Shown here: piece after piece, positions 20,595 through 64,000 of the stretch
Position numbering within the stretch: the first letter of the stretch is position 1
How the letters are laid out: every line of letters begins with the position of its first letter
Origin: Marinifilum flexuosum
GTDB lineage: Bacteria; Bacteroidota; Bacteroidia; Bacteroidales; Marinifilaceae
Assembly: GCF_003610555.1 (NCBI RefSeq)
Contig: NZ_RAPQ01000008.1
Coordinates: forward strand, 1,666,490 to 1,730,489
Direction: 5' to 3'
DNA length: 64,000 nt
The notes under the pieces: model-generated
Told to the model about the DNA's origin: nothing
The model's database searches: none
The model's input: the letters and a program-made list of their open reading frames with translations, nothing else
Made by a program: the position numbers and the translations under genes

Positions 20595-21299
20595 ATGGAA
20601 TGTGCGATATTTAGGGGGATAATTTCAATTGAAAGTGTGGTGTTGCGTTACCACAAAAATGAACTTCAGGTTCTTGTTGATGAAAGAGCTGTGACACAAA
20701 ACAGGGGCAATTCAGAAAGAGAAAACAATGCTTTTATTGCAGCTCAAATTACTGAACAAGCAAAATCACTTCATGAAATGGTAAGTGAAAACCTCAAGGA
20801 ATTAATTTCTTTTGAGAAGATATATGTTGAGCAGGTTCAAACACGGATTCAATCTCAGTTTCCGAAACATGCAAGAGACAAGTATGATAATAATTCTGAA
20901 AATGCTTCCAAACAACCCGTTGTAATTATCGGCTGCTGTGTATTGGTGGCCTCTTCGGAAAACAAAGAGGATCATGAGAAGGCAAAATGGGTTCCCGTAT
21001 CTGATTCTGACGAATTTGAAACTGTTTTACATCCACTTTTACAAGAAGCGCTAACATTTCTGAATCGAAAAATTGAGCAGGATCCCATCGCATTTTATTT
21101 GTTACCTGAAAAATTTAGCCTGAATGAGTTACAGCAGGTATATGAAACGGTAACAAGCAGACGCTTGGATAAGAGAAATTTCAGGAAAAAAATAGCTCAA
21201 CTACAATATTTAACTCCATTAAACGAAAAACAGAAAAACGTAAGGCATAAACCAGCAAGTTTGTACTGTTTTAATGGTAGTGTTTTTGAAAGAAATTAA
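20595..21299 (+). CDS. NrtR/AraR-type transcriptional regulator with a degenerate Nudix domain
   Basis: The 234-residue protein has the two-domain layout of NrtR-type repressors. The C-terminal winged helix (about 170-234) carries the family hallmark: LPEKFSLNELQQVYE, then LDKRNFRKKI and the final RHKPASLYCFN. The N-terminal part keeps Nudix-fold strands (SVVLRYHKNELQVLV; IYVEQVQT; AKWVPVSD), but the Nudix box with its GxxxxxExxxxxxxREUxEE pattern is absent, replaced by a charged Asn/Glu/Gln-rich helix. It should therefore bind a ligand rather than hydrolyse one. In Bacteroidota, relatives such as AraR regulate sugar genes. It lies 167 bp upstream of the GH3 gene, with palindromes between, so control of that gene is likely. 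Confidence 0.8.
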   Translation: MECAIFRGIISIESVVLRYHKNELQVLVDERAVTQNRGNSERENNAFIAAQITEQAKSLHEMVSENLKELISFEKIYVEQVQTRIQSQFPKHARDKYDNNSENASKQPVVIIGCCVLVASSENKEDHEKAKWVPVSDSDEFETVLHPLLQEALTFLNRKIEQDPIAFYLLPEKFSLNELQQVYETVTSRRLDKRNFRKKIAQLQYLTPLNEKQKNVRHKPASLYCFNGSVFERN

Positions 21300-21383
21300 G
21301 TCTGAATTGCAGTTGTAATTATTTTAAAGTTCTTGTTATTCAGATGGATGATCTGTTTTTTTTGAAATCAAATTAAGAACCTA

Positions 21384-21456
21384 GTTTAAACCTAAATGAA
21401 TTTAGATTAAACCATGAATTTTGTGCCAATATCTATGTTTAGATTTTGATTTAAAC
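21384..21456 (+). promoter_or_regulatory. two palindromes upstream of the GH3 gene, candidate operators
   Basis: The first element spans 21384-21412. Its core CTAAAT-GA-ATTTAG is a perfect palindrome, with outer GTTTAA and TTAAAC halves off by one base. The second spans 21437-21456 and pairs GTTTAGAT with ATTTAAAC around TTTG (7 of 8 positions). Both share the half-site GTTTAR. They sit between the NrtR-like gene and the GH3 start at 21467, where a repressor would block transcription. Binding is inferred. Confidence 0.45.
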
Positions 21457-21466: not shown

Positions 21467-23797
21467 ATGAAAAGAAACAAAAGGAAATTACTGGCAATAT
21501 ATTTGGTTGGTTGTATAGGCTTTTATTCATCATGCAAGAGTAAAAATGATGGAGAAGCGAACTATCTTAATCCAAATTTACCAGTTGATGTTAGGGTAGA
21601 AAATTTGCTGTCTCAAATGACTTTGGAGGAGAAGATTGCCCAAATGTGTCAGTATGTTGGGCCTGATCATATCAGGGAGGCAGAGATGGTGATGAGTGAG
21701 AAAGACCTACACGACAATGATGCAATGGGATATTACCCGGATTTGTCGGTAGAAGATCTGGAAGATATGACACGCAAAGGAATGGTAGGTTCGTTTTTAC
21801 ATGTGAAAACTCCAGAAGAAGCCAATCATTTACAAAAACTGGCCAGAGAAAGCCGATTAAAAATCCCGGTATTAATAGGAATTGATGCAATTCATGGAAA
21901 TGCCTTAAATGTAGGAGCAACTGTATATCCAACGCCCATAGGAATGGCAAGTACCTGGGAGCCGGCTCTTGTTGAGCGTAGTGCTCGCGAAACCGCTCTT
22001 GAAATGCGTGCCATGGGTGCACAATGGGCATTTACTCCAAACATTGATATCGCTCGTGATGCTCGTTGGGGTAGAGTAGGTGAAACATTTGGAGAAGATC
22101 CACATTTGGTTTCAGAGATGGGAGTAGCCATGATTCAAGGAATGCAAGGGGATAATTTCACCGGAGAAGATAAGGTAATTGCCTGCGCCAAACATTTAAT
22201 TGCTGGCAGCGAACCGGTAAACGGACTCAATGCTGCTCCTATGGATGTTTCGGAACGAACACTACGAGAAGTTTTTCTCCCTCCTTATCAGGCGGCTATT
22301 GATGCCAATGTATTCTCTATGATGGCAGCGCATAATGAACTCAACGGTGTGCCTTGTCATTCCAATCATTATATCATGACTGAATTGATGCGCAATGAAA
22401 TGGGCTTCGAAGGTTTCTTTGTCAGCGACTGGATGGATATTGAGCGATTGGTAGATCTACACTTTGTTGCCGAAACTGAAAAGGAAGCCTGTTATTTATC
22501 GGTGAATGCAGGAATGGATATGCACATGCATGGGCCAAGATTTCACGAGCCTGTAAGGGAACTGGTTGAAGAGGGCCGACTAAGCGAAGAAAGAATTAAC
22601 CAATCGGTGCGTAAAATTCTTGAGGCAAAGTTTCGTTTGGGCTTGTTCGAAAATCCTTTTACCGATTTGGAAATGGCCAAGAAGCAGATATTTGCCAAAG
22701 AACACCAGCAAACCGCTCTTGATATGGCACGAAAATCAATGGTCTTATTAAAGAATGAAGAGATACTGCCTATCAATACAACAAAATATCCAAGAATTCT
22801 GGTCACAGGACCCAATGCAAATAATCAAACGATTATGGGAGATTGGTCGGCAAAACAACCTGATGAAAATGTGCTTACAATATTTGAAGGCCTGGAACAG
22901 GAAGCGCCGGCAAACTGTAAATTAAGTTTTTACAATTGTGGTGAGACTTTATTGTCAATTGAAGATTCAAAAATTGCAAAGGCCGCATCACTTGCCAAAA
23001 ATCATGATCTAACCATCGTAGTTGTTGGTGAAAATTCCATGCGTTACAAATGGGATGATAAAACCTGTGGAGAAAATACAGATCGTTCAAACATTCAGTT
23101 GCCAGGAAACCAACAACAATTGGTAGAGGCTCTGCACAAAAGTGGAAAGCCTGTTGTTGTGGTATTGGTAAATGGGAGACCTTTGGGAGTAGAATGGATT
23201 GCCAATAATGTTTCTGCTCTGTTGGAAGCATGGGAGCCCGGAAGTTTTGGAGGTCAGGCAGTGGCCGAAATTTTGTTTGGAAAGTTTAATCCAAGTGCAA
23301 AACTTCCTATTTCTATTCCACGAAATGCAGGGCAAATTCAAACCGTATATAACCACAAACCATCTCAGTATTTTCACAAATACAAAGCCGATGAAAGTAG
23401 TGCCTTATTTCCGTTCGGATATGGTTTAAGTTATACCAATTTTGAATACAGCAATATAAAACTGAGCAAAGAAAGAGTTAAAAAGAATGAAACTGTTCAG
23501 CTTTCAGTACAGCTTACCAATGCTGGGAATCGAAGAGGTGATGAAATTGTACAGCTTTACATTCGTGATGAGTATAGTTCGGTAACACGACCTGTAAAGG
23601 AATTGAAAGCTTTCAAAAAGATAGATCTTGCACCCAATGAAAGTTCAGTTCTGGAATTCGAGATATCGCCTAAGATGCTTGAATTCTATGATATTGATAT
23701 GAATAAGAAGGTAGAAGCAGGCAAATTCATAGTAATGATTGGTGGATCATCACTTGATGAGGATCTTCACAAGCTGACCTTTGAAGTGATTGAATAG
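21467..23797 (+). CDS. GH3 beta-glucosidase, lipoprotein
   Basis: The 776-residue protein begins with a lipoprotein signal (lipobox FYSSC, lipidated C23), so it is anchored in a membrane facing the periplasm or surface. The N-terminal GH3 barrel has the substrate-binding KHLIAGSE region and the nucleophile D321 in FFVSDWMD. The second GH3 alpha/beta domain (about 415-625) and a C-terminal fibronectin-III-like domain (about 680-770, ending in a conserved FVMIGGSS-type strand) complete the usual architecture. It should remove terminal beta-glucosyl or related residues from oligosaccharides. It follows the NrtR-like regulator and converges with the HTCS gene, sharing a bidirectional terminator. 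Confidence 0.92.
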   Translation: MKRNKRKLLAIYLVGCIGFYSSCKSKNDGEANYLNPNLPVDVRVENLLSQMTLEEKIAQMCQYVGPDHIREAEMVMSEKDLHDNDAMGYYPDLSVEDLEDMTRKGMVGSFLHVKTPEEANHLQKLARESRLKIPVLIGIDAIHGNALNVGATVYPTPIGMASTWEPALVERSARETALEMRAMGAQWAFTPNIDIARDARWGRVGETFGEDPHLVSEMGVAMIQGMQGDNFTGEDKVIACAKHLIAGSEPVNGLNAAPMDVSERTLREVFLPPYQAAIDANVFSMMAAHNELNGVPCHSNHYIMTELMRNEMGFEGFFVSDWMDIERLVDLHFVAETEKEACYLSVNAGMDMHMHGPRFHEPVRELVEEGRLSEERINQSVRKILEAKFRLGLFENPFTDLEMAKKQIFAKEHQQTALDMARKSMVLLKNEEILPINTTKYPRILVTGPNANNQTIMGDWSAKQPDENVLTIFEGLEQEAPANCKLSFYNCGETLLSIEDSKIAKAASLAKNHDLTIVVVGENSMRYKWDDKTCGENTDRSNIQLPGNQQQLVEALHKSGKPVVVVLVNGRPLGVEWIANNVSALLEAWEPGSFGGQAVAEILFGKFNPSAKLPISIPRNAGQIQTVYNHKPSQYFHKYKADESSALFPFGYGLSYTNFEYSNIKLSKERVKKNETVQLSVQLTNAGNRRGDEIVQLYIRDEYSSVTRPVKELKAFKKIDLAPNESSVLEFEISPKMLEFYDIDMNKKVEAGKFIVMIGGSSLDEDLHKLTFEVIE

Positions 23798-23878: not shown

Positions 23879-26800
23879 TTAGGAACCATACTTACTTGGA
23901 CTCACACCATAAAACTTTTTGAATGAAGTACTAAAATACTTAGGGTCAGAAAAGCCTGTGCTGTAAGCTATTTCACTAATACTATATTTCCCTGTTTTTA
24001 TAAGTTCAGCTGATTTTTTTAATCTGATAATTTTCACAAAATCCTGAGGAGACTGATCCGTCAATGCTTTTAGCTTTCTGTACAATACTGGTCTGCTTAT
24101 AAAGAGTTTTTTGCTGAACTCTTCAACCGAGAAATCAGTATTATCAAGGTTTTCATTTACAATATCCATGCATTTCTGAATAAATTCCTGGTCGAGTTCA
24201 TTTTTGTAATTGATTTGCTCGGAAGTATCTTCCTGTTTCAAGAATTTTTCTTTCAGAACCTTATGAGAATTCAAGAGATTGGAAATTTTCGATTTTAAAA
24301 TTCTCAAATCAAAAGGTTTCTCAATGTAACCATCTGCACCTAATTCATAGCCTTCAATTTTGTAATCGGAAGAGGTTAGGGCTGTTACCAGTATAATTGG
24401 AATATGACAGGTTTCGATATTCTTTTTTAAATGATTACAGAATACTCTGCCATCCATTTCGGGCATCATAATATCCGATACAATAATATCAGGTTCTTCT
24501 TCTTTGATCAGTTCAAGGGCTTCTTTACCATTGGAAGCCTGCATAATTTGATACGAAGAGCTTAGTTCTTTTCCAAGGAAGGTATTCAGTTCTTTACTAT
24601 CTTCTACAATTAAGAGTTTTGGAAGATTTGTATCTGGTTTTGGTAATTTATCTGCTTTGTTCTCTTTTACCTCAGGCTTAATGGAAGTTCTAAATACAGG
24701 AATGTATTTTTCATCGGTCTGTTGATCGATAAAATCGTTGACATTGAAGTGCTTATTGCCCATTTTGAACTTGATAAAGAAGCTGGTGCCGGCTTTAGGT
24801 TTACTGGTAAAACTAATGGTGCCTGAATGAGCATTTACCAGTTGTTTCACAAGTAGCAAGCCTACGCCACTGCCGGTTTCCTCCGAGTTAATGGCATTTG
24901 TAGCACGGTAATATCTTTTAAAGATGTTTTCCTGTTGATTTTCAGGAATTCCTATTCCGCTATCCTCAACTTTTATCAAACATTGATTACGCATTAACTC
25001 AATACATATGCTTATTTTTCCTTCCTCAGGAGTATATTTAATTGCATTGGAAATCAGGTTGTAAAAAATCTTATCAAATTTTAAGTGGTCATACCATAAT
25101 TCAATTACTTCCTGGCTTGATAGCAATTGAAAATGCAACCTTTTCTTTTCGAGCAGAGGTTGGAATGAACTGGACACTTCGGTCAGATGCTCTACCAAAT
25201 TGTGTCTGCCAACCTGCAGTTGCATCTTTTTCATTTCGGCCTTTTGAAAATCCAGCAACTGGGTAAAATAGGTTGTGAGTTTATCTACATTTTTAAGAGC
25301 CATATGAAGCAATTCGGAATCTTGCTTAGGTAAATTTTCTCTTGACGAAAGGCTGGTTAAGGGCGATTTTATTAAAGTTAGAGGTGTTTTTAAGTCATGA
25401 GCTACATTAATAAAAAACTGAATTTTCTCATTGGAGTTCTTTTCTTGAATTCGGATTCGGATAAATTTGAAAATAAAACTAGCAATTCCTAAGAAAAGAA
25501 TAAGGTAAATGGCATAAGCCCAGTAGGTTTGCCAGAAAGGAGGTTGTACCTTAATGGTAATTTCTCTTTGCTTTCCATTCCAATCATCTTGCAGGTTACT
25601 GGCCCTTACTTTAAATGTATAGGTTCCGGGATGAATGTTGGTATAGTTGGCTATGGAAGCAGAAGATGAAGGAGTCCATTCATCTTCGAATCCCTCTAAT
25701 TTCCATGAGTAACGATTCTTTACAGGATTTGTGTAGTTAATTCCTACAAAATCAAAAGAAAAGGAGTTTTGGTGGTAATCCAGTACGATTTTCTGTGTTA
25801 AGTCGATATGTTTTGAAAGTGGCGTATTAGGATCACCTATTGGATAAGATTTATTGGATATTTTAAAATCGGTAAAAAATATCTTGGGCGCTATTAGTAT
25901 TTTCTGAATCTGAAGAGGATCGAAGGATACAAATCCACTTTCGCCTCCAAATATCATTTTACCCTTTGAGGTGATGCAAGAAGCTCCAATACTGAATTCT
26001 TTAATGGATAAACCATCCGAAATATCGTAATTTACAAACTTCCTGCCAGGAGGATTAAAAAGAGATAAGCCATTTGTCGTACTCAACCAAACTTGCTCCT
26101 TTTTATCGGGAAGGATGCCATATATGGTGTTAGAAGGTAAACCGTCTTTCTGTGTAAAGTGGCTGAATTTTTCTGTTTTAGGATTGAAAATATTTAATCC
26201 ACCTCCTTCTGTTCCGATATATACCTTACCATTTTTATCTTCATAAAAACAAAAACAGGCACTACTGCTAATTGCATCAGGATTATTTTTGTCTGGCACA
26301 AAAAGTTTGAATTCCCCATTGGTTTTGTTAAAAAGATAGAAGCCCTCACGACAACCAATGTATAGGAAGTTGGAACTTCCTTCATATATATTCTGAACGC
26401 TATAAATTGGATAAGAAATTATCTTTTTCGTAGTTGGATTGTATTTTAATAACTTGCCTCTGATTGAGCCAATCCATATATTTCCATCTCTGTCTTTTAA
26501 AATTTCATATACGTAAATGCTTCCTTCATTTTCTTCCAGCACATGTTTAGGAAATGCTGGCTGAATCTTTCTTGTCGATAAATTTAATTGATCTATTCCG
26601 CCACCATAACTGCCAATCCATATTTCGTTATTGCTCACCTGTTCAAGGCTAAGAATTGTATTGCTGCCTATTTGTTTCTTCTGATTTGTCCTGTTGTAAA
26701 AGTGTTGCCATTGATTGGTAGAAGGATTTAATTTGCTGATGCCTTTTTTGGTTCCAAACCACATGTTTCCAAATGAATCTTCAAGAACTGCCCTTCCTGT

Positions 26801-27883
26801 ATTATTGGCCAGTGAATTTTTCTTGTTTACAATGTGCTGTATTGGTTTAAAAGGTAGAAAGTTAGGGTCATAAATATTAACGCCTCCTCCATATGTGGCA
26901 ATCCAAAAACGATTTTCGTCGTCACGAAGTAAATCATATACACCATTACTACTTAAAGAATTAGGTTTATCTTCATTGTGATTAAAATTTCTCAAAATTT
27001 CAAAAGATTCGTTGATTATATAGGCTCCAAGACCATCAACACCTACAAGATAGTATCCTGAATTAATTGGAATAATTTTTTTAATCCATATTCCATTTGC
27101 AATTTCACTACTAAGACTATTGCATTTTGTAATTTCTTTTTTTGCTAAGTCCCAAATAAAAACTCCATTGTCGATAGTACAGATCCATATTCGGTTTACA
27201 GCATCACGAAACAAGTAATTACAGTAGGAATTTGACAATTGGTATTTGTTGGTTTTTAGTTCATTTAGCGGGCTTATTCTATAATTTTTAGCATCTATTT
27301 TAAATATCCCATTGCTCGTTCCAATAATAAAATGCTGTTGATCAAATGGAAGAATAGACAAAACTGGAGTGTTGATCTCTTTAATTTTAATCAAAGAATC
27401 TTCTTTTGATTTAAAGATGTAGGCTGAGTTATCAGCACCTATTAAGAGGTTACCCTCACTATCTTCAGTCAATACATTAATTCGCAAAGAAGCCAATTCT
27501 TTTGCATTTGTACCTTCTACCCTGAAATAAGTATCCTTTTCAGCATCATAGGAGAAAAGTCCATTTAGTGTTCCTACCCAAAGTTTGTCACTTCGATCCA
27601 CTAATAAGGTTTTGGCAACATTGTTTTCTGAATTCAACTCATTGTCAGATACAAGTTTATAATGCTTGAACTCGTATCCATCGTATCGGTTAACTCCATT
27701 TCGAGTGCCGAACCAAAGAAGTCCTTTAGAATCTTCGGCAATCGAATACACAATGTTGTTGCTCAGTCCTTTGTGGATGGTAAGGTGCCTCAGGTCGATT
27801 CCTTTAACCGAAAAGCAAACTGAGATTAAAATTGAAGTAAGTAGTAAGTAAAATTTCTGCATCATATTGGCTAAAATATTCAT
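23879..27883 (-). CDS. hybrid two-component system sensor/regulator (HTCS)
   Basis: The frame is open from 27985, but I place the start at ATG 27883 (1334 residues) because a signal peptide (MMQKFYLLLTSILISVC...) begins just after it and a -7 promoter element lies at 27921-27928, inside the longer version. Domains in order are about fourteen periplasmic Reg_prop propeller repeats (about 25-690), a Y_Y_Y domain, a membrane helix near residue 790, HisKA with H829 (AHDLKTPL), HATPase, a receiver domain with D1137 (IIVSDIMMP), and an AraC-type helix-turn-helix at the C-terminus. Such proteins sense an oligosaccharide in the periplasm and activate the adjacent polysaccharide utilisation genes. It diverges from susC, its probable target. 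Confidence 0.95.
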   Translation of the reverse strand: MNILANMMQKFYLLLTSILISVCFSVKGIDLRHLTIHKGLSNNIVYSIAEDSKGLLWFGTRNGVNRYDGYEFKHYKLVSDNELNSENNVAKTLLVDRSDKLWVGTLNGLFSYDAEKDTYFRVEGTNAKELASLRINVLTEDSEGNLLIGADNSAYIFKSKEDSLIKIKEINTPVLSILPFDQQHFIIGTSNGIFKIDAKNYRISPLNELKTNKYQLSNSYCNYLFRDAVNRIWICTIDNGVFIWDLAKKEITKCNSLSSEIANGIWIKKIIPINSGYYLVGVDGLGAYIINESFEILRNFNHNEDKPNSLSSNGVYDLLRDDENRFWIATYGGGVNIYDPNFLPFKPIQHIVNKKNSLANNTGRAVLEDSFGNMWFGTKKGISKLNPSTNQWQHFYNRTNQKKQIGSNTILSLEQVSNNEIWIGSYGGGIDQLNLSTRKIQPAFPKHVLEENEGSIYVYEILKDRDGNIWIGSIRGKLLKYNPTTKKIISYPIYSVQNIYEGSSNFLYIGCREGFYLFNKTNGEFKLFVPDKNNPDAISSSACFCFYEDKNGKVYIGTEGGGLNIFNPKTEKFSHFTQKDGLPSNTIYGILPDKKEQVWLSTTNGLSLFNPPGRKFVNYDISDGLSIKEFSIGASCITSKGKMIFGGESGFVSFDPLQIQKILIAPKIFFTDFKISNKSYPIGDPNTPLSKHIDLTQKIVLDYHQNSFSFDFVGINYTNPVKNRYSWKLEGFEDEWTPSSSASIANYTNIHPGTYTFKVRASNLQDDWNGKQREITIKVQPPFWQTYWAYAIYLILFLGIASFIFKFIRIRIQEKNSNEKIQFFINVAHDLKTPLTLIKSPLTSLSSRENLPKQDSELLHMALKNVDKLTTYFTQLLDFQKAEMKKMQLQVGRHNLVEHLTEVSSSFQPLLEKKRLHFQLLSSQEVIELWYDHLKFDKIFYNLISNAIKYTPEEGKISICIELMRNQCLIKVEDSGIGIPENQQENIFKRYYRATNAINSEETGSGVGLLLVKQLVNAHSGTISFTSKPKAGTSFFIKFKMGNKHFNVNDFIDQQTDEKYIPVFRTSIKPEVKENKADKLPKPDTNLPKLLIVEDSKELNTFLGKELSSSYQIMQASNGKEALELIKEEEPDIIVSDIMMPEMDGRVFCNHLKKNIETCHIPIILVTALTSSDYKIEGYELGADGYIEKPFDLRILKSKISNLLNSHKVLKEKFLKQEDTSEQINYKNELDQEFIQKCMDIVNENLDNTDFSVEEFSKKLFISRPVLYRKLKALTDQSPQDFVKIIRLKKSAELIKTGKYSISEIAYSTGFSDPKYFSTSFKKFYGVSPSKYGS

Positions 27884-27920
27884 CTCAATCAATAAAATTG
27901 ATTGGTGATCAAACTTGTAA

Positions 27921-27928
27921 CAAATATA
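27921..27928 (-). promoter_or_regulatory. Bacteroidota-type -7 promoter element of the HTCS gene
   Basis: On the minus strand the site reads TATATTTG, an exact match to the TAnnTTTG consensus of the primary sigma factor in Bacteroidota. It lies 38 bp upstream of ATG 27883. No clear -33 TTG is visible at the usual distance, so the promoter may be weak, as suits a sensor gene. Confidence 0.5.
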
Positions 27929-28367
27929 CGGATTGAAGCTTAAACTCGCAGAGAAACAGCGCGAAAAGAACGGAAAACACACCATTGAAGAACGATAGTT
28001 AAACCCTGGTATGTGACAACAGAAAGTATTTTCGTTTCTTTGTTGCAGAAAGAAATGTTAACGCTGTAAAGAAAGGATTTTAGTATTATTCTTTAATCTG
28101 GAAACCATGGTGTTTATTGCATTACAGAGCCATTTGTTATTTTATGGCAAAGGTAGGACATGTAGTTTGCAATTTGAGTTTGAGAAGAAGATGTGAACGT
28201 TGAATGATTGTCTTCTTTAGGCTCAGAAAAACAGGTTGTTACCATTGGAGGTTTGCTTCGGGATAAGATGGAGAGAACGTTAATTTAAGCTTTTAGAACT
28301 ATGAATGAACCCGTTTCGATTGTGGTATAGCGAATTTAGCAACTGTTAACATTAAATCTAAATTTCA
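27929..28367. other. divergent control region between HTCS and susC
   Basis: No gene is present. As HTCS proteins usually bind upstream of their susC target, the activator site is expected here. I found no exact TAnnTTTG on the plus strand; the closest is TAGTTTG near 28162, one base short. An activator-dependent promoter without a good -7 element would be consistent. Confidence 0.4.
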
Positions 28368-33119: not shown

Positions 33120-33207
33120 AACAAGTCCGAATGTATGATTGAATATGTGTTGGTCGTTTTTGGCTAGTACCAACGCATATTTATCACTAACCAAAAAATC
33201 TGAAAAA

Positions 33208-34928: not shown

Positions 34929-34987
34929 ACTTTTTTTTGAGATCCATCTCAAGGAGTGATTTCAAAATAGACCAGAACAATCTAATC

Positions 34988-51903: not shown

Positions 51904-51904
51904 T

Positions 51905-54221: not shown

Positions 54222-55937
54222 ATGAACGAAACTATAAAAACAAGAAGAAGCACAGGTCTTTTTTCAAGATCAGCTAAGAGCTTAAGTTTAGCGATGATGC
54301 CATTCTGTTTATTGGCAGGAGAAAACCAGGCTCAGGCTACTGAACCTGTAAGTAAAACCGGTGATTCGGCAGGGAAGCATATTGCCTCGCAGCAGGAAAA
54401 ACCAAATATCATCTTTTTTATCGCGGATGATATGGAACGTTTTCAATTTAATTGTCTGCCAGAGGGGAAGGGGAAAAACTTAACCCCCAATATCGATCGT
54501 TTGGCGAAGGAGGGAACTGTGATGTTCGGACAGCATGTGAGTTCAGCTGTTTGTACGCCAAGTCGTTTTTCTTGTTTGACTGGTCAGTATGCAAGTCGCG
54601 CTCAAAACGAAGGGTTTTTGAAGGATACCAAGAGAATGGATGGAGAAACTGTTGTGCAATGGAATTCTTTTATGACCCCAAAATCGAATTCAATTGCCAA
54701 GCTTTTAAAGAAGCAGGGATATACCACAGGGTTTTTCGGAAAAGATCATGTAATTGAGGCAGAAGGTTGGAGAAAACTTCCTTTGGATACGGATCCTACT
54801 TCGCCGGATGCTGTGAAAGTACTGAAACGAAATGCCAAGCTGATTGCCGATGCCATGAAAAAGTGTGGCTTTGATTATGCCGGGGCAAATTATTACGATA
54901 ACCCAAGCTATTTGGGACCTGAAAAGTTGAGATATCACAATCTGGATTGGATTACAGAGAAGAGTTTGAACTTTATGGATAAAGCAGAAGATCAGCCTTT
55001 CTTCCTTTACTATGCTACAACTGTTCCTCACGGACCAACAAATGCAGAACAGGCCTGGGATGCGGATCGCAGAATCACCTCAGAAGGAATTTTGGATAAA
55101 GCACCTAATGTGCAGCCAGCCAAAGAGACAATTGGTCAGCGTTTAATTGATGCAGGATTGGCAACACCGGGAAATATTCCTGAAAACAAAGCCAATGTAT
55201 TGTGGATTGACGATGCTCTTGGTGCTTTAATGCAAAGACTAGAAGATGAAGGAAAGTTAGACAATACCATCATTTTCTTCTTTAGCGATCACGGTCAGTA
55301 TGCTAAAGGATCGGTTTACGAAGGCGGTGTAAGTAGCCCGTCAATTGTATGGAAAAAGGGAGGATTCAAGTGTGGCAATAGAAATGAGGCCTTGGTTTCA
55401 AACATCGACTTTGCACCAACCATCTACGATATGGCCGGTGGAAAAGTTGAAAAAGTGAAAGCCTTTGATGGAAAAAGTTTCTTGCCAATTCTGGATGGAA
55501 AGAAGGAAAAGATTCACGAGTCGCTTTATTTCGAAATGGGATTCTCTCGCGGGGTGTTAATGGACAATCACAAATACATTGCTTTGCGTTACCCTGAGTA
55601 TGCCATGAACTGGAGCATGAAAGAGCGTCAGCAGAAGTTGGATGACTGGAACAATTTCCGTATCGCAAACAAATTGAAATACCATTTCGATGATGCAAGT
55701 CTTCCTTTTTCACACTTGATGTTGATACCAGGAGGTGGTGATGCTGAATACCCTTCAACAAAACGCTATAAGCACTATTACGATGCCGATCAGCTTTACG
55801 ATTTAAATAAAGACCCTAAGGAACAAGATAACCTGTATGAAAACGAGGCTTACAGCGCCAAGTTAAAGGGATTGAAGAAAGAGTTGAAAAAGTATTTGAA
55901 CGACTTGCCGGGAATTTTCGGTGAATTTAAGAAGTAG
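54222..55937 (+). CDS. sulfatase 10 (S1 family)
   Basis: I use ATG 54222; a TTG eight codons upstream is less likely. The 571-residue protein has a long signal region ([17 protein letters not shown]..., cut near AQA) and a type I sulfatase domain: [13 protein letters not shown]111 in CTPSR (formylglycine), FFGKDHV in place of GKWH, and [17 protein letters not shown]. The motif changes and longer N-terminal half place it in a subgroup of its own among the ten. The C-terminal [14 protein letters not shown] is an unusual glycine-rich loop. It heads the last unit of the window, followed by the GH94 gene. Confidence 0.92.
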
Positions 55938-55988: not shown

Positions 55989-56035
55989 GTCCCGAAAATG
56001 ATCAATCGGCAACAGAAACATTAATGACTAAGAAA

Positions 56036-58474
56036 ATGAAGTACGGATTTTTTGATGATGAAAGAAGAGAGTATGTAATTACTCAGCCCAATACCCCATT
56101 TCCATGGATCAATTATTTAGGTAACGAGGATTTTTTCTCGTTGGTTTCTAATACCGCAGGAGGTTACAGTTTTTATAAGGATGCCAAGTTTCGTCGCTTG
56201 AACAGGTACCGTTACAATAACGTGCCAATGGATAACGGTGGGCGTTATTTCTATATCAAGGACAACGACACAATTTGGTCGCCAGGATGGAAACCTGTAA
56301 AGACAGAATTGGACAAGTATGAGTGTCGCCATGGTTTGAGCTATACCAAGATTACAGGTGAAAAAAATGGACTGGAGTCAGAAGTTACTCTTTTCATTCC
56401 ACTTGGGAATTGGTGCGAGATTCAGAAAATGAAATTGACCAACAAGAGTGAAGAAGTTAAAAAGTTTAAGCTTTTCTCTTACAATGAATGGTGTTTGTGG
56501 AATGCCGAGGATGATCAAAACAATCTTCAGCGTAACCTTTCTACCGGAGAAGTAGAGATTGATGGCTCAACATTGTACCACAAAACAGAATACAAGGAAC
56601 GTAGAAATCACTTTGCGTTTTATCATGTAAATGCCGATATCGATGGTTATGATACTGACCGTGAATCATTCATGGGGTTGTATAATGAAGCTTCAGGGCC
56701 ACAGGCTGTTTTAGATGGAGCTCCTCGCAATTCTGAAGCCCACGGATGGTCTCCAATTGCATCTCACTATTTCGAGATTGAGTTGCAGCCAGGCGAAAGT
56801 AAAGATTTGATTTTTGTTTTGGGATACGTTGAGAATGCTGAAGACGACAAGTGGGAGAGCAAAGGCGTTATCAATAAGACAAAAGCAAAGGCACAGATTG
56901 CCAAATTTGATACTGGTGAAAAAGTAGATGCTGCCTTGGCAGAACTAGCAGCTTACTGGGAGAACTTATTGAGTATTATTACTCTTGATCACGAGGATGA
57001 TAAGTTGAACCGAATGGTAAACATCTGGAACCAATACCAGTGTATGGTTACCTTTAACATGTCTCGTTCAGCATCTTTCTTCGAGGTAGGTATCGGACGT
57101 GGTATGGGATTCCGTGATTCCAACCAGGATTTAATCGGATTTGTACACCAGGTTCCTGAACGTGCCCGTGAGAGAATCATCGATATTGCTTCTACTCAGT
57201 TTCCTGATGGAGGATGTTACCACCAGTATCAGCCACTTACCAAAAGAGGTAACGATGCTATCGGTGGAGGATTTAACGATGATCCAATGTGGTTGATTTT
57301 AGGAACTGTTAGCTATATCAAAGAAAGTGGTGATTTTTCTATCCTTGATGAAATGGTACCATTTGATAATGATGAAAGCTTAGCTCAGCCTTTGTTTAAT
57401 CACCTAACGGTTTCTTTCGATCATGTTATTAACAATTTAGGACCAAATGGCTTGCCATTGATCGGACGAGCTGACTGGAACGACTGTTTGAACTTAAACT
57501 GTTTCTCAACCAATCCGAATGAGTCTTTCCAAACAACTGAGAACAACACTGAAGGTTCTAAAGCTGAATCATTGATGATTGCAGGTTTGTTTGTTGTTTA
57601 TGGAAACGACTATATCGATCTATGTAAGCAACTGGGCAAAACAGAAGAAGCTGAGCGTGCACAGAAAGCTGTGGATGCAATGAAAGAAGCTGTTAAAGCC
57701 AAAGGTTGGGATGGAGAATGGTTCCTTCGTGCTTACGATTTCCATGGAAACAAAGTGGGATCTGACGAAAATGAAGAAGGAAAGATCTTTATTGAATCTC
57801 AGGGATGGTGCTCCATGGCTGAAATCGGAATCGAAGAAGGCATGGTAGAGAAATCATTGAACAGTGTAAAGGAGAGATTGAATACACCTTACGGTATCGT
57901 ATTGAATAATCCTGCTTTCAGCAAGTATATGATTGAATATGGCGAAATCTCAACTTATCCTGCCGGATACAAGGAGAATGCCGGAATTTTCTGTCACAAC
58001 AACCCATGGATTATTATCGGGGAAACCAAGATTGGTCGCGGTAAGGAAGCCTGGAATTACTTTAAGCAAATCTGTCCTTCTTACTTAGAGGAGGTTCAGG
58101 AACTTCATAAGGTAGAGCCTTATGTGTATTGCCAGATGATTGCAGGTAAGGATGCCTACAAACCAGGTGAAGGTAAAAACAGCTGGTTGTCAGGTACAGC
58201 AGCATGGAATTTCTATGCAGTTGTTCAGTATATCCTGGGAATACAGCCAGACTATAATGGAATTAAAATAGATCCTTGTATCCCTGAAGAATGGAAAAAC
58301 TATACCGTGAACCGTAAGTTTCGTGATGCAAACTACCAGATTGAGATTGTGAATCCTGAGGGTGTTTCTAAAGGAGTTAAAGAGATTTGGTTGAATGATG
58401 AGAAATTGGATACCAATGTAATTCCTGTAATGGATAAAGGAACCTGTAATAAGGTGAAAGTTGTTATGGGATAA
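56036..58474 (+). CDS. GH94 disaccharide phosphorylase (cellobiose phosphorylase-like)
   Basis: The 812-residue enzyme (start at MKYGFFDD; an ATG four codons upstream is also possible) has no signal peptide and is cytosolic. It covers the full GH94 architecture: N-terminal beta-sandwich, linker helices, (alpha/alpha)6 barrel and C-terminal jelly roll. The general acid is D480 in [11 protein letters not shown]. The N-terminal [19 protein letters not shown] and the [10 protein letters not shown] segment resemble characterised cellobiose phosphorylases, which convert cellobiose and phosphate into alpha-glucose-1-phosphate and glucose. Phosphorolysis saves ATP. It sits just upstream of the sugar symporter, its likely supplier. 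Confidence 0.9.
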
Positions 58475-58520: not shown

Positions 58521-58568
58521 ATAGCCCGGCTTGGGACAGACAATTTGTCTGCCTCAGGTTCGGGCTAT
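58521..58568. other. nested hairpin in the leader of the symporter gene
   Basis: Outer arms ATAGCCCG/CGGGCTAT (58521-58528, 58561-58568) enclose an inner stem CAGACAA/TTGTCTG (58537-58543, 58545-58551). No T-run follows. It lies 44 bp before ATG 58612 and could regulate or separate expression of the symporter from the phosphorylase. Confidence 0.5.
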
Positions 58569-58611
58569 TGAAATACAATATAGACAAGACTTTTTAACCA
58601 AACGAAATTCT

Positions 58612-60240
58612 ATGAATAACGAAAAAATACATATCAAAGAAAAGATTGGATACGGTTTAGGGGATACGGCCTCGAACCTGTTCTTTCAATCCTTCATGCT
58701 GTTTCTTCTGTATTTTTATACAGATGTATTCGGTATTCCTGCTGCAGCTGCCGGAACCATGTTTCTGGTGACCAGAATTTGGGATTCAGTAAACGACCCT
58801 TTAATGGGGATTTTATCGGACAGAACCAATACCAAGTGGGGAAAGTTTCGACCATATATTCTGTGGTTGGCCATTCCATTTGGAATTATCGGAGTGTTAA
58901 CATTTACTACTCCCGATTGGTCTGTAGCCAGTAAAATTGTATATGCATACATTACCTATACACTTATGATGATGGTGTATACGGCTATCAATATTCCTTA
59001 CTCTGCCTTGATGGGGGTGGTTTCTTCCAATCCTATTCAGCGTACGAGCTTTTCTCAGTATCGATTTATTTTTGCTTTTGCCGGGGCTTTTATTGTGCAG
59101 GGGATTACTCTTCCTTTGGTTCAACAATTTGGAGGAAACGATGATTCTGTTGTGATAGCAGAGCAGATTCAGAATGAAATTGTGATCACTGAAAAAGGAA
59201 CGGGAACATCTAAAATTGAATTGGAAGCTATTGTCCCGGGTGAAGAGCCAGTTGAAGGTAAAATATCAGTTTGTGTGCTTACTCCTGAAATGTTTGCCGA
59301 AGCAGATACTGCAGGTGGATTGCTTGCCTTGCAAAAGGGGTTTGAAAAGAGAACGGTACCTGTTGCCGATTATATTGAAGGTGTTGATTTAAGCAAGGTT
59401 CAACTAAAAGTAAGTGTGGTGAATGAACGCAAAGGTTTTATGTGGGCCATGATTGTTTTGGCCACTCTGGCTGTTATCATGTTCCTGATCACTTTTGTTA
59501 CTACCAAGGAGAGAGTTCAACCTGCAAAAGAGCAAAAAACATCACTTAAAGATGACATCAAAGATTTGGCAGCCAACAAGCCTTGGTGGATTTTGTTTGT
59601 GCTGGGAATCTTCACCTTATCCTATGTTTCCGTTCGAAATGGTGCCATCATGTATTACTTTAAATACTATGTGGGGAATGATGCCCTGGCCTCAGGCTTT
59701 ATGATTGCAGGTACCATTGCAACCATTGCATCTATCACCTTAACAGAGTGGTTGTCGAAAACTTTCGGAAAAAAGAGAGCCTACATCTATAGCATGATAC
59801 TTACCAGTGTCTTAACCGTAGCCTTCTATTTTGTTGGCAAGGACGATATTGTAGCAATGTTTGTATTACAGGTATTGATCAGTTTCGTATTTGGGCCAAC
59901 GGCACCTTTGGTGTTTGCCATGTATACCGATGCGGCAGACTATTCAGAGTGGAAAACTGGGCGAAGAGCTACAGGACTGGTAATGTCGGCATCGACCATG
60001 GCACAAAAGTTTGGATGGACCATTGGTGGTGCATTGGCAGGATGGTTATTGGCTGCATTTGGTTTCAAGGCCAATGTTGAGCAGGCAGAAGGTGCTTTAA
60101 CTGGAATTCAGCTAATGATGAGTTTGATACCTGCTGCAGGAAGTGTGTTGGCAGCCATCTTTATGCTGTTTTACAAGCTCGATGAGAAATTTTTAGGCGA
60201 GGTAGAAGAGGAGTTGAAATTAAGAAGAGTAAAGGCCTAA
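58612..60240 (+). CDS. GPH-family (MFS) sugar:cation symporter with an extended central loop
   Basis: I start at ATG 58612; the longer frame runs through the leader hairpin. The 542-residue protein has about 12 membrane helices and the GPH signatures IGYGLGDTASNLFF at the N-terminus, DPLMGILSDRT, and, after the middle, the DAADYSEWKTGRRATG motif. It imports a glycoside with a cation across the inner membrane. It is longer than the usual 450-500 residues because residues about 185-285 form a soluble loop between helices 6 and 7 (VVIAEQIQNEIVITEKG through LKVSVVNERKG). Placed between a GH94 and a deacetylase/GH94 pair, it most likely brings disaccharides in for phosphorolysis. Confidence 0.92.
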   Translation: MNNEKIHIKEKIGYGLGDTASNLFFQSFMLFLLYFYTDVFGIPAAAAGTMFLVTRIWDSVNDPLMGILSDRTNTKWGKFRPYILWLAIPFGIIGVLTFTTPDWSVASKIVYAYITYTLMMMVYTAINIPYSALMGVVSSNPIQRTSFSQYRFIFAFAGAFIVQGITLPLVQQFGGNDDSVVIAEQIQNEIVITEKGTGTSKIELEAIVPGEEPVEGKISVCVLTPEMFAEADTAGGLLALQKGFEKRTVPVADYIEGVDLSKVQLKVSVVNERKGFMWAMIVLATLAVIMFLITFVTTKERVQPAKEQKTSLKDDIKDLAANKPWWILFVLGIFTLSYVSVRNGAIMYYFKYYVGNDALASGFMIAGTIATIASITLTEWLSKTFGKKRAYIYSMILTSVLTVAFYFVGKDDIVAMFVLQVLISFVFGPTAPLVFAMYTDAADYSEWKTGRRATGLVMSASTMAQKFGWTIGGALAGWLLAAFGFKANVEQAEGALTGIQLMMSLIPAAGSVLAAIFMLFYKLDEKFLGEVEEELKLRRVKA

Positions 60241-60336: not shown

Positions 60337-60376
60337 CATTCACTTGAATTAGTTCGAACTTGAAAAGTTGAATTGC

Positions 60377-62065
60377 ATGAGTAAGAGATTAATTATTTCG
60401 ATTGGAATTTTCCTGCTGGCAGCTTTGTCTGTCATGAGCCAGACAATTGAACCTTTACAATCTGTTAAGACAAAGCAGAAATTGGTCGCTTTCACATTTG
60501 ATGATGGGCCGAATCCACAGACTACTGCTGAAATCATGAATTTGTTTGAGAAAGCAGATGGAAAAGCCACCTTCTTCGCTATTGGGAAAAGCTTATCGAA
60601 GCATACAGCCTTAGCCAAAGAAGTATTACAAAGAGGGCATGAAATAGGCAACCACAGCATGACTCATAAGCGTCCGTCAGGAACTACTACGGCCGATGAA
60701 TCGATACAGGAGATTAAAGGGTTTCAGGATATGATACAAAAAGAATTGGGATACTCGCCGAGCTTGTATCGTGCTCCTTTTTTAAAGTATGATATGCTGA
60801 ATAGTGGTAGTTTGGAATCTCTTGGTTTGAAAGCTGTGAATGCTTCCGTTTATGCCAGGGATGCAAAGAAAGATGTACCTGTTGAAGGAATCGTAAAACG
60901 AATCATGGATGATGTTCATTCCGGAGCGATCATTCTTTGTCATGAGAGACAACATACTATCAAAGCATTGAAGCAGATACTTCCTCAGTTAAAGTCGGAA
61001 GGATATCAGTTTGTAACGGTATCGCAATTACTGTCTTTGGCCAAAGGTAATGTTGTTGCAGCCAATCATCCCTTGGTTAAAATTAAAGGAAGTAAATACC
61101 ATTACATGAAGAATGGAGTGATGGTGTTTCCTCGTCATTCAGCCAACCTATTGGCGATGGCGAAATCCAAAAGCAAGTTTAGTCCTGTAAAAGCGCAAAC
61201 AACAACAGGTGTTATTGTGTCATTTAAAACAGCCAGTCCAAAGGTAAAAGTCAACTTTAAAGTATTGGAAGGAGACAATAGGGGGCTTGTGTTTGGAATT
61301 TTTGAAAATAAAGAATTTAGAGAGGCCAAGAGTTTTGGTAAAAAAGAGGGACCCTTATTATCCTTTGATATAGAATCAGCGCATAAAGGTGAAGAGGTCA
61401 CATATGAAATCAGTCTTCCGAACTGGGCCAATGTAGGTCTGGTGAATATTGAATTGGAAGAAGGATACGACTTGAAAGAAATTAAATCGGAAGAGAAGCC
61501 CGTTTATGTGGCTTACGGGAATTCCATTACTCATGGTACCGGACAGCAGGCAAGCCATCAAACCTATCCTTTTTTATTGTCCCGGGAAATGAACTGGGAC
61601 TTGTATAACCTGGCAGTAGGAGGTGGGAAAACTTCTGTGCCTATGGCGGAAATGATCAGGGATGACTTTTCCAAGATCGATTACATGACCATCCTGATAG
61701 GATACAATGACTATAATGGAGAGGGAATATCAGCGAAAGAATACAGCAAAAGATTGGAGAATTTCCTGACAACCATACGTGAAAAGCACAGCCTTACCAA
61801 GCTGTTCTGTATTACACCAACCCATACAAAAACGCTGCGCAGTAAAAAGAGTGGGGAGAGTATTGCAGATTTTAGAAAGAGTATGACTCAGGTAGTGGAA
61901 AAATTTCAACAGGAGGGAGATGGGAACATTTTTCTTATCAGGGGAGAAGAGATTTCGAAACTTGCAGACCTGAAAGATGCCGTTCACTTTAATGTGGAAG
62001 GTGCCAAAAGCTTTGGCGATAAACTATCAATAGAATTAAAGAAGAAACTAGCTACTAATAACTAG
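60377..62065 (+). CDS. NodB polysaccharide deacetylase fused to an SGNH-type esterase
   Basis: The 562-residue protein (ATG 60377) has a signal peptide (cut near VMSQ). The first domain (about 35-225) is CE4/NodB: TFDDG with D42-D43, metal ligands H93 and H97 in HSMTH, the RAPFLKY motif, and a C-terminal ILCHERQ histidine. Residues about 230-370 form a beta-rich linker domain. The last domain (about 373-562) is an SGNH hydrolase with S383 in YGNSITHG, the glycine block VGGGKT, the GYND block, and the D534-x-x-H537 pair. Two deacylation activities in one secreted protein would strip N- or O-acetyl groups from the glycan. It is 12 bp upstream of the second GH94 gene. Confidence 0.9.
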   Translation: MSKRLIISIGIFLLAALSVMSQTIEPLQSVKTKQKLVAFTFDDGPNPQTTAEIMNLFEKADGKATFFAIGKSLSKHTALAKEVLQRGHEIGNHSMTHKRPSGTTTADESIQEIKGFQDMIQKELGYSPSLYRAPFLKYDMLNSGSLESLGLKAVNASVYARDAKKDVPVEGIVKRIMDDVHSGAIILCHERQHTIKALKQILPQLKSEGYQFVTVSQLLSLAKGNVVAANHPLVKIKGSKYHYMKNGVMVFPRHSANLLAMAKSKSKFSPVKAQTTTGVIVSFKTASPKVKVNFKVLEGDNRGLVFGIFENKEFREAKSFGKKEGPLLSFDIESAHKGEEVTYEISLPNWANVGLVNIELEEGYDLKEIKSEEKPVYVAYGNSITHGTGQQASHQTYPFLLSREMNWDLYNLAVGGGKTSVPMAEMIRDDFSKIDYMTILIGYNDYNGEGISAKEYSKRLENFLTTIREKHSLTKLFCITPTHTKTLRSKKSGESIADFRKSMTQVVEKFQQEGDGNIFLIRGEEISKLADLKDAVHFNVEGAKSFGDKLSIELKKKLATNN

Positions 62066-62077
62066 AGATTGAAGAAA

Positions 62078-64000
62078 ATGAAGTACGGATATTTTGACGA
62101 TAAGAATAAAGAATATGTAGTGGAACGACCGGATACTCCGGCATCATGGACCAACTACCTGGGAGATACAAACTACGGAGCTATTATAACTAATAATGCA
62201 GGAGGATACAGCTTTTACAAATCAGCTGCTCAGGGACGATTTACCAGATTGCGTTTCAACTCTGTTCCTATGGATCAGGCAGGGCGTTATTTGTATTTTC
62301 ATGACAAGGATTCCAATGATTTTTGGTCTGCCTCCTGGCAACCAGTTGGAAAGTCGTTGGAGCAATTTAAAACCGAGTGCCGACACGGAACAGCTTACAC
62401 AAAAATTAGTTCAGAATATAAAGGTTTAGCCTCAGAGGTAACCTACTTTGTTCCCAGAGGAAAGGCTTATGAAGCATGGATGGTGAAGCTTACCAATAAG
62501 GGGAAGGTGACAAGAAACCTACGAGCTTTCCCTTTTGTAGAGTATGCCTGTAACTGGAATGCCGGAGATGATTTAGGCAACTTGCAGTACACGCAGTACA
62601 TCGCAAAAATGTCGGTTGCTGATGGGATCATCGATCATGGATCGAATATCAATATGCCTGAAATGCCTGAGGATTTTCAGCAGAAGGATCAGCAACGTCA
62701 TACTTTCTTTGCCATGGTAGGTGCAGAGGTTTCAGGTTATGATACTGATAGGGATGTATTTATAGGCAGATACAATGGCTATGGTAATCCTGAGGTTGTT
62801 CAAAAAGGTGAATGCGCAGGCTCACTGGCCGAAGGAGGAAATCCTTGTGGGGTTTTACAAACAGACATTTGTTTGCAGCCAGGAGAATCTGTTGAGTTCG
62901 CCATTGTTATGGGAATTGGAAGTGCCCAAAAAGAAGGTGCTGAAGTAAAAGAGAAATATACAGACCTATCGATTCTGAAAAATGAATTGGAAGAGTTAAA
63001 GAATTACTGGCACAGTCGTTTAGAAGTGATGCAAGTTGAAACTCCTGATGCTGATATCAACAGCATGTTAAATGTTTGGAGTCCATATAACTGTCAAATC
63101 ACTTATGCATGGTCAAGAGCTGCCAGTTTAGTTTATGCTGGAGTTCGTGATGGTTTAGGTTATCGTGATTCAGTACAGGATATGTTGGGAGTGATGCACT
63201 CTGTTCCTGAAGAGGCGGGAGAACGTTTGGAACTTTTGATAACAGGTCAGGCTTCAACCGGAGGTGCGATGCCAGTAGTGAAGCCATTTGCTCATAAGCC
63301 AGGAGAAGAGAAAGAGCCTGATGCAAATGAATACCGTTCTGATGATTGTTTGTGGTTGTTCAATGCCATTCCTGAGTATGTAAATGAAACCGGGAATTTT
63401 GATTTCTACCTAAAAGAACTACCCTATGCTGATAAGGGAAAAGATACTGTACTTGGGCATTTAAGAAGAGCCATTGAGTTTAATTTAGAGCGTTCAGGAG
63501 CTCACGGTATTCCTTGTGGATTGGCTGCCGACTGGAATGATTGCCTGGTCTTGGGATATGAAGGTGAATCGGTGTTTGTAGCATTCCAATTGCGTTATGC
63601 TTTGGCCAAATACAGTGAGGTTGCCGAAAAACTGGGCTTGACAAAAGAAGTGGAATGGGCAGAGCAGGAGTTAAGAATTCTGGATAAGAGTCTGGAAGAG
63701 CATTGCTGGGATGAAGATCGTTACGTTCGTGCCTTCAGCGATAAAGGATTCCGTTTTGGAGCCAAAGAGAATGAAGAAGGTAATATTTTCATGAATCCGC
63801 AGGTTTGGGCTGTAATTAGTGGTCATGCCAATAGGGAAAAAGCCGAAAAGGCAATGAATGTCGTTCACGACGATTTGTATACTGATTATGGGATCATGTT
63901 GTGTGCACCACCATTCGAAAAATCAAATTTTGATATTGTTCGTGCCGTATTGTTCAACCCTGGAATGAAAGAGAATGCTGGGATTTTCAACCATACGCAA
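62078..64000 (+). CDS. second GH94 phosphorylase, chitobiose phosphorylase-like (3' truncated by window)
   Basis: The frame from ATG 62078 stays open to the right edge (641 codons seen of an expected 800 or so). It starts MKYGYFDDKNKEYVVERP and has no signal peptide, so it is cytosolic. The GH94 general acid is D485 in AADWNDCLVLG. It is clearly divergent from the GH94 at 56036: it lacks the PWINYLG form (PASWTNYLG instead) and has RASLVYAGVRDGLGYRDSVQD, closer to N,N'-diacetylchitobiose phosphorylase and related enzymes. A different disaccharide from that of the first GH94 is therefore likely. It forms an operon with the deacetylase/esterase gene. Confidence 0.88.
   Translation, partial: MKYGYFDDKNKEYVVERPDTPASWTNYLGDTNYGAIITNNAGGYSFYKSAAQGRFTRLRFNSVPMDQAGRYLYFHDKDSNDFWSASWQPVGKSLEQFKTECRHGTAYTKISSEYKGLASEVTYFVPRGKAYEAWMVKLTNKGKVTRNLRAFPFVEYACNWNAGDDLGNLQYTQYIAKMSVADGIIDHGSNINMPEMPEDFQQKDQQRHTFFAMVGAEVSGYDTDRDVFIGRYNGYGNPEVVQKGECAGSLAEGGNPCGVLQTDICLQPGESVEFAIVMGIGSAQKEGAEVKEKYTDLSILKNELEELKNYWHSRLEVMQVETPDADINSMLNVWSPYNCQITYAWSRAASLVYAGVRDGLGYRDSVQDMLGVMHSVPEEAGERLELLITGQASTGGAMPVVKPFAHKPGEEKEPDANEYRSDDCLWLFNAIPEYVNETGNFDFYLKELPYADKGKDTVLGHLRRAIEFNLERSGAHGIPCGLAADWNDCLVLGYEGESVFVAFQLRYALAKYSEVAEKLGLTKEVEWAEQELRILDKSLEEHCWDEDRYVRAFSDKGFRFGAKENEEGNIFMNPQVWAVISGHANREKAEKAMNVVHDDLYTDYGIMLCAPPFEKSNFDIVRAVLFNPGMKENAGIFNHTQ

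Follow-up and report, generated by a model that had tools for sequence, protein, structure and literature searches.

Polysaccharide utilization loci (PULs) for carrageenan, ulvan, fucoidan and glycosaminoglycans carry many family S1 sulfatases, together with lyases or hallmark hydrolases, and xyloglucan loci carry a GH31 alpha-xylosidase and other side-chain enzymes. Another type, the 'sulfated xylan' PULs of marine Bacteroidota, combines a GH10 protein that has a sulfatase domain with a GH3 and two further sulfatases, and sulfated xylan is its predicted substrate in the passages of PMC6794258 that deal with it. Here we describe a PUL of Marinifilum flexuosum that begins within a stretch of 64,000 nucleotides (contig NZ_RAPQ01000008.1, positions 1,666,490 to 1,730,489 of the forward strand; the window) and spans positions 20595 to 68479, beyond the window end. 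It has the tandem susC-susD pair, carbohydrate-active enzymes and regulator of a SusC/D-type PUL. A Pfam scan of its 25 proteins found a hybrid two-component system (HTCS) regulator, SusC/SusD, an Ig-type protein, 11 sulfatases (S1 to S11), a GH9, three GH5 (GH5a to GH5c), two GH94 (GH94a and GH94b), a GPH symporter, a CE4-GDSL protein and a GH3. By sequence, this PUL shares ancestry with the 'sulfated xylan' type, and we read it as a variant of that type whose backbone chemistry is that of a glucan PUL. The sulfated-xylan type is already known; what we read as new is a form free of GH10, with endoglucanases and phosphorylases.

In 395 genomes of the phylum, SusD had three matches at 1e-70: the genome itself, G510 (45%) and G760 (44%). 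The best match in a plasmid collection was Persicobacter sp. JZB09 CP012861 (46.9%). A SusD profile matched 2 of 365 genomes of the class and 2 of 364 of the order, our own genome counted; the new one, G226, has its SusD on a contig of 6,974 bases with HTCS, SusC and SusD only. The G510 and CP012861 loci share with our PUL the HTCS (30-34%), SusC (44-52%), SusD (43-47%), GH3 (54-58%) and four sulfatase orthogroups. Besides HTCS, SusC, SusD and GH3 (54%), G510 has two GH10 and a GH29, and a GH5 with a type IX secretion system (T9SS) tail lies beyond the core. Two of its sulfatases belong to the S3 group and others to the S5, S6 and S7/S9/S11 groups; a further one is distantly related to S4, and there is one more. 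In CP012861, HTCS, SusC (52%), SusD and GH3 (58%) are joined by sulfatases of the S3, S5 and S6 types, by one distantly related to S4, and by one of the S11 type that is fused to GH10. Up to the end of its contig, G760 has SusC, SusD, GH3 (58%), an S11-type sulfatase and a distant relative of S4; beside its SusC stands a FecR-type gene, and no HTCS. GH10 is therefore seen in two of the three nearest SusD loci, the third (G760) being cut by the contig end. In our tree, groups S6, S5, S7/S9/S11 and S1/S2/S3 each fall with counterparts from these loci. Because the nearest relatives share them, the importer, the GH3 and much of the desulfation kit belong with the sulfated-xylan type. An earlier, sequence-only reading did not recognise the locus as a characterised pathway. 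This needs correcting, because the transporter, GH3 and four sulfatase orthogroups match the published PUL type as the relevant passages of PMC6794258 present it.

The difference lies in the backbone enzymes. The PUL has no GH10, alone or fused to a sulfatase; instead, it carries GH9, three GH5, two GH94 and the CE4-GDSL protein. Also particular to it are S4 (which has only distant counterparts in the sulfated-xylan PULs), S8, S10 and duplicate sulfatases. Among neighbours of the related loci, a GH78-type rhamnosidase stands beside the G510 HTCS and a GH92 past that of CP012861, and a 594-aa open reading frame (ORF) near the Persicobacter GH10-sulfatase locus (L090:33191-34972) matches nothing in Pfam with confidence (best E 0.006). 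A farther Persicobacter locus, CP012852 (SusD 38%), has three GH26 and three GH43. A plasmid of Persicobacter psychrovividus, reached via S6 (48.8%), also pairs GH9 with sulfatases; we set it aside as a different locus (GH9 21%, SusD 26%).

Comparison with solved structures in the Protein Data Bank (PDB) suggests that the backbone enzymes act on beta-1,4-glucan. GH94a scored 1294 bits against the cellobiose phosphorylase 3qde and 487 against the best chitobiose phosphorylase. By sequence, GH94a is clearly a cellobiose phosphorylase and, because of this, a beta-1,4-linked glucose product is well supported. Among solved structures, the GH9 is closest to the xyloglucan endoglucanase BoGH9A of Bacteroides ovatus (6dht, 1.2e-147). 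GH5a is nearest to FnCel5A (9.4e-32), followed by other Cel5A endoglucanases, and it weakly matches the T9SS tail domain Por_Secre_tail (2e-4, below the curated cut-off). GH5b is nearest to bacterial endoglucanases, endoglucanase E-5 in particular. GH5c resembles these endoglucanases weakly and has a beta/gamma-crystallin-like region. In an alignment of distant rows it lacks one of the two catalytic glutamates of GH5: the acid/base Glu is kept, and Asn takes the place of the nucleophile, both here and in Marinifilum sp. D737. Because of this replacement in both strains, we believe that GH5c is probably a catalytically dead binding protein. It is under purifying selection (dN/dS 0.09).

Thus, the PUL has the predicted endo-beta-1,4-glucanases and cellobiose phosphorylase of a beta-1,4-glucan locus. 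GH10 had no match in the whole genome at 1e-5 and none among the 25 PUL proteins, and we rejected plain sulfated xylan as the substrate because the genome is without GH10. As GH94a, GH5b, GH5a and GH9 are nearest to cellobiose phosphorylases or endoglucanases, and as there is no GH10, we propose that the PUL targets a sulfated, probably acylated polymer with a backbone of beta-1,4-linked glucose, cellulose-like or of mixed linkage, and that GH9, GH5 and GH94 take the place of the GH10 found in PULs of common ancestry. We consider the chances of this reading to be about even. A known polymer fits: according to the part of a review that mentions it, a sulfated (1,3;1,4)-beta-glucan with sulfate on its 1,4-linked residues has been reported from the red alga Kappaphycus (PMC7997180). 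The literature searched gave no PUL or degradation locus for sulfated glucans of beta-1,4 or mixed linkage.

All 11 sulfatases have the C-x-P-x-R motif, and the ten in the window match PF00884 at E values of 2.8e-40 to 6.8e-62. Of the 24 PF00884 matches in the 5.17 Mb genome (E <= 1e-15), 17 lie within 67 kb (contig 1, 1701570-1768610), 11 in our PUL and six in the next one. Tree and identity sort the 11 into seven groups: S1/S2/S3, S7/S9/S11, S5, S6, S4, S8 and S10. S5 groups with one sulfatase each from G510 and Persicobacter, and the nearest to S10 in the tree is a Persicobacter plasmid sulfatase (31%). The N-terminal ~290 residues of S8 (49762-50640) have no confident Pfam match (best E 0.075); this region has a twin-arginine-like start and is 93% identical in two relatives. 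We compared S4, S6 and S7 with solved structures. The best match of S6 was 9bb9, an 'S1_8A sulfatase' (2.4e-86), and those of S7 were 6hhm, 5fql and 6ioz, which include an iduronate-2-sulfatase. The best seven sequences for S4 include 7p24 (mucin-desulfating), 5g2v (an N-acetylglucosamine (GlcNAc)-6-sulfatase) and 7lha (an exo-L-galactose-6-sulfatase). The 6-hydroxyl is present in glucose and absent from xylose; the likeness of S4 to 6-O-sulfatases fits glucose, as a hint only. Glucose and xylose have the same pattern of 2- and 3-hydroxyls and, therefore, shared sulfatases could serve both.

Several points count against the proposal. The nearest relatives of the transporter stand beside xylanases. 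Since SusC/D proteins with like predicted substrates tend to group together (PMC6298971, in the section concerned), this argues for xylose in the imported oligosaccharide. The best NCBIfam match of GH3 is beta-xylosidase (614.6 bits, not reaching the cut-off of 1350), followed by beta-1,3/1,6-glucosidase (600.1, cut-off 1330) and BglX (568.9, cut-off 666), neither of which is reached. The 6-O argument is not clean because the tree places S4-like sulfatases of GH10 loci together with S4 (99/97) despite identities of only 33-36%, and the structure comparison reaches only three of the 11 sulfatases. Finally, the scores do not settle the sugar of GH94b. Its nearest structure is the N,N'-diacetylchitobiose phosphorylase 8bou (777 bits), behind which the chitobiose (1v7v, 606) and cellobiose (3qde, 603) enzymes tie.

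The main alternative follows the transporter: the substrate could be a sulfated hemicellulose with both xylose and glucose, xyloglucan- or xylofucoglucan-like, such as the sulfated xylofucoglucan of brown algae. The PUL would attack its glucan part and keep a xylan-type importer. GH10 loci share the importer, GH3 and four sulfatase orthogroups with our PUL, and one of these loci has GH29 and GH5 as well; this sharing is consistent with the alternative, as is the nearness of GH9 to a xyloglucan endoglucanase. In the passages concerned, sulfated xylofucoglucan appears among the hemicelluloses of brown algae (PMC7285066; PMC6298971) and sulfated xyloglucans are named as likely substrates of GH10 PULs (PMC6298971). 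However, neither an alpha-xylosidase nor an alpha-fucosidase nor a GH43 is among the 25 PUL proteins, to which the search for these three was confined, and GH10 is missing from the PUL and from the genome as a whole. We regard this alternative as rather unlikely. Xyloglucan itself was rejected: the PUL has none of the side-chain enzymes of xyloglucan loci (no GH31, GH2, GH43, GH95 or GH29 among the 25 proteins).

It is also conceivable that there are two substrates in one wall, with GH9, GH5 and GH94 cutting ordinary cellulose, the sulfatases stripping a separate polymer, and the two sets merged in one operon. GH9 homologues do occur without sulfatases: 22 other genomes have a GH9 homologue (44-50% identity), and a profile built from the 11 sulfatases found none in the 18 neighbourhoods taken from them, of which one measured 12 kb and the other 17 measured 20 kb. 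The phosphorolysis genes have their own sulfatase-free counterpart on contig 5, where NrtR, a GPH symporter, a GH94 (72% to GH94a), SusC/D and GH30 form a cluster; its NrtR, beside GPH and GH94, is a 35% paralogue of the NrtR/AraR-type regulator at the PUL edge. No sulfatase matched in the 20 kb around this GH94 cluster, whereas the positive control, G510, gave seven. Because of this cluster, NrtR-GPH-GH94 is marked, by sequence, as a reusable gluco-disaccharide module, and we take the PUL to carry the same one, which favours the glucan proposal too. Upstream of the contig 5 cluster (L096:943-5582) are two large ORFs (788 and 756 aa) without a Pfam match at 1e-8. In addition, Marinifilum has been credited with cellulose or hemicellulose enzymes (PMC12325347, in the part concerned). 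Nevertheless, the PUL has no depolymerase for a second backbone, and its cellulase and sulfatase genes are interleaved. Moreover, the S11 sulfatase group goes with backbone cutting in Persicobacter because it is fused there to the endo-hydrolase GH10. We consider two separate substrates improbable. In the genome_contigs collection, only two loci with this GH9 were found, those of D737 (95%) and Marinifilum breve JC075 (92%). Over the 21.8 kb around the GH9, each contains ten sulfatase frames, of which one is truncated at the end of the locus. The contrast with the 18 neighbourhoods, like the crowding of 17 PF00884 matches into 67 kb, is more than chance.

A sulfated amino-glucan with glucosamine or GlcNAc units, for which GH94b would be a chitobiose-type phosphorylase, is the remaining alternative. 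GH94b is nearest to 8bou and then 1v7v, and shares with both the same short stretch after its DWNDC motif. The CE4 domain, the resemblance of S4 to GlcNAc-6-sulfatases and the matches to SGSH_C, a domain named for N-sulphoglucosamine sulphohydrolase and strongest in S4 (1.3e-47), point the same way. Yet 1v7v and 3qde score alike against GH94b, SGSH_C tells little because all 11 sulfatases match it, neither GH18 nor GH20 occurs in the 25 proteins of the PUL, and GH94a looks like a cellobiose enzyme. We consider an amino-glucan very unlikely. Of the substrate put forward in the sequence-only reading, a sulfated, acylated cellulose-like or amino-glucan polymer, the beta-1,4-gluco backbone is upheld by the best matches of GH94a, GH5b and GH9, and the amino-glucan option is weak.

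The layout of the locus is given in Table 1. The NrtR/AraR-type regulator and GH3 come first, followed by the HTCS on the opposite strand and a co-directional run: SusC, SusD, the Ig-type protein, seven sulfatases, GH9, GH5a, three sulfatases, GH94a, GPH, CE4-GDSL, GH94b, GH5b, S11 and GH5c. This agrees with the genes named in the sequence-only reading (HTCS, SusC/SusD, GH9, GH5, GH3, GPH symporter, CE4 with GDSL and two GH94, the second completed by the flank) and with its placing of the HTCS alone on the minus strand. To these, our scan adds the NrtR/AraR-type regulator and the Ig-domain protein. It counted ten sulfatases, which is right for the window; S11, beyond it, brings the PUL to 11. 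Likewise, its GH5 is present in the window, and the PUL holds three, one apparently catalytically dead. It also saw none of the lyases or hallmark hydrolases of carrageenan, ulvan, fucoidan or glycosaminoglycan PULs. The Pfam scan matched none from 20595 to 68479, including the part right of the window where such a gene might have told against it. The right end is GH5c, and the downstream locus has its own HTCS and SusC/D. In the 40 kb right flank, 20 ORFs were scanned, leaving out antisense ORFs and three ORFs between the PULs (L003:10550-13005). The maturase lies 1.1 kb past the PUL with one ABM-domain gene between.

Table 1. Genes of the Marinifilum flexuosum PUL and a nearby maturase, in window numbering; positions above 64000 lie in the right-hand flank.
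Feature	Position	Strand	Evidence
NrtR/AraR-type regulator, PUL edge	20595-21299	+	PF21906 5.1e-25
GH3 (beta-glucosidase or beta-xylosidase)	21467-23797	+	PF00933 4e-68
HTCS regulator	23879-27985	-	Reg_prop, Y_Y_Y, HisKA, HATPase, Response_reg, HTH_18
SusC-like TonB-dependent transporter	28368-31547	+	PF00593, PF07715, PF13715
SusD-like glycan-binding lipoprotein	31569-33119	+	PF07980 1.1e-32, PF14322
Ig-domain protein, probably surface glycan-binding	33139-34821	+	He_PIG, RibLong
Sulfatase S1 (group S1/S2/S3)	34889-36454	+	PF00884 4.3e-61; CVPSR; tree
Sulfatase S2 (group S1/S2/S3)	36455-37987	+	PF00884 5.1e-61; CVPSR
Sulfatase S3 (group S1/S2/S3)	38039-39535	+	PF00884 6.8e-62; CLPSR
Sulfatase S4, GlcNAc-6-/L-Gal-6-sulfatase-like	39592-41085	+	PF00884 3e-56
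Sulfatase S5	41105-42547	+	PF00884 9.1e-45; CGPSR
Sulfatase S6, S1_8 type	42553-44253	+	PF00884 2.8e-40
Sulfatase S7, iduronate-2-sulfatase-like	44257-45807	+	PF00884 2e-43
GH9, endoglucanase-type	45887-47665	+	PF00759 7.2e-87
GH5a, endoglucanase-type, weak T9SS-like tail	47675-49477	+	PF00150 6.8e-32
Sulfatase S8 with ~290-aa N-terminal region, RR signal-like start	49762-51903	+	PF00884 4e-46
Sulfatase S9 (group S7/S9/S11)	51905-53389	+	PF00884 3.4e-45; tree
Sulfatase S10, divergent	54198-55937	+	PF00884 6.9e-44
GH94a, predicted cellobiose phosphorylase	56024-58474	+	PF17167 1.1e-161
GPH-family sugar:cation symporter	58531-60240	+	PF13347 3.2e-108; TIGR00792 421 bits, cut-off 231
Polysaccharide deacetylase (CE4) fused to GDSL esterase	60368-62065	+	PF01522 1.5e-28, PF13472 6.3e-14
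GH94b, disaccharide phosphorylase	62069-64471 (window ends 64000)	+	PF17167 5.6e-135
GH5b	64490-65440, right of window		Pfam scan of flank
Sulfatase S11	65534-67102, right of window		Pfam scan of flank
GH5c, GH5-like	67115-68479 (L003:5105-6469), right of window		Pfam scan of flank
Anaerobic sulfatase maturase	69627-70835, right of window		TIGR03942 434 bits, above cut-off

Some of the proteins may sit at the cell surface. A search with a crude lipobox pattern gave matches at the starts of GH3, SusD, the Ig protein, S6 and S9. We disregarded its further matches, at improbable places in HTCS, S7 and GH5b; S1, S2 and GH5c escaped it although, by eye, they resemble lipoproteins. Along 254 aa, the Ig-domain protein shares 28% identity with a protein encoded close to the SusD of Persicobacter; that protein matches SGBP_BT4661-like.

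Two other Marinifilum strains carry the PUL or part of it. D737 has full-length counterparts of all 25 genes (86.7-100% protein identity), with pooled dN ~0.019, dS ~0.209 and dN/dS ~0.09 (0 to 0.286 per gene). The M. breve JC075 piece (21.8 kb around GH9) has 12 genes, S2 to GH94a, in the same order (92-99%); it ends inside GH94a, and a partial sulfatase frame precedes S2. Relatives of GH5a were found in one of 393 genomes of the order at 1e-40 (our genome itself) and in two of 56 family genomes at 1e-20 (our own and G818); a search for a plasmid copy gave no match at 1e-30.

The PUL and the next sulfatase PUL form one block of ~82 kb (20410 to about 102607) that is absent from the congener G816. 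There, the flanking DUF4421 gene is separated by 5.8 kb from the ketoacyl-synthase-like gene on the other side, compared with about 83 kb in our genome and 96 kb in G818. G818, taken to be D737, holds the block in pieces (89-96% DNA identity); about 4.4 kb of it (our 71.0-75.4 kb) is unmatched, and about 7 kb of other DNA lies at each edge. Thus, the site is a variable spot in the genome. Because the spread is narrow, gain of the block seems somewhat more likely than its loss. The empty site of G816 (L075:4968-10112) is occupied by other ORFs over 5 kb; judged by eye, these include a fragment resembling macroglobulin and a YegP-like protein.

The next PUL (about 75780-102460; L003:13770 to L038:450) has an HTCS, SusC/D, a Glyco_hydro_cc+CBM4_9 protein, GH43, a beta-helix protein, a fusion of GH16 with a sulfatase, and GH2; its sulfatases number six in total. 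This PUL is likely to serve another sulfated glycan, which may be beta-1,3-linked. Beyond it lies an element of ~6 kb (L038:5848-11971) with a recombinase-like ORF (L038:6067-7386; a tyrosine recombinase by eye). This element seems to sit in a tRNA-Ser(GGA) gene because the congener tRNA-Ser(GGA) region (L075:15847-15935) matches both its ends; ARAGORN found no tRNA on L038.

Based on these comparisons, we propose a model for the PUL as a dedicated sulfated beta-1,4-glucan pathway. It would have arisen when the backbone enzymes of a sulfated-xylan PUL were swapped and the importer and sulfatases kept, and it would end in phosphorolysis. Both the substrate and the direction of the swap are inferred, and we hold this fuller model more tentatively than the glucan backbone itself, at somewhat below an even chance. 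In the model, the HTCS senses an oligosaccharide, and the Ig protein, SusD and the apparently dead GH5c may bind the chain at the surface, where GH5a would make the first cuts. SusC/D would then import sulfated oligosaccharides. The seven sulfatase sequence groups may take off esters at different positions, while the CE4-GDSL protein would take off acyl groups. GH9 and GH5b could then cut the bared chain, with GH3 trimming end sugars. The GPH symporter would carry the disaccharide into the cytoplasm, where GH94a, and GH94b for a second disaccharide, would yield sugar-1-phosphate. We infer the order of these steps, the cell compartments and the sulfate positions.

Sulfated hemicellulosic glucans have been reported from seaweed walls, and we found no described bacterial route for them in the literature searched. 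The PUL names candidate enzymes for their use by bacteria, and it offers a cheap assay in the release of sulfate plus glucose-1-phosphate. It may also exemplify a change of backbone specificity by a swap of endo-hydrolases, with transporter and sulfatases kept. If this is true, SusC/D similarity alone can mispredict the backbone of a substrate.

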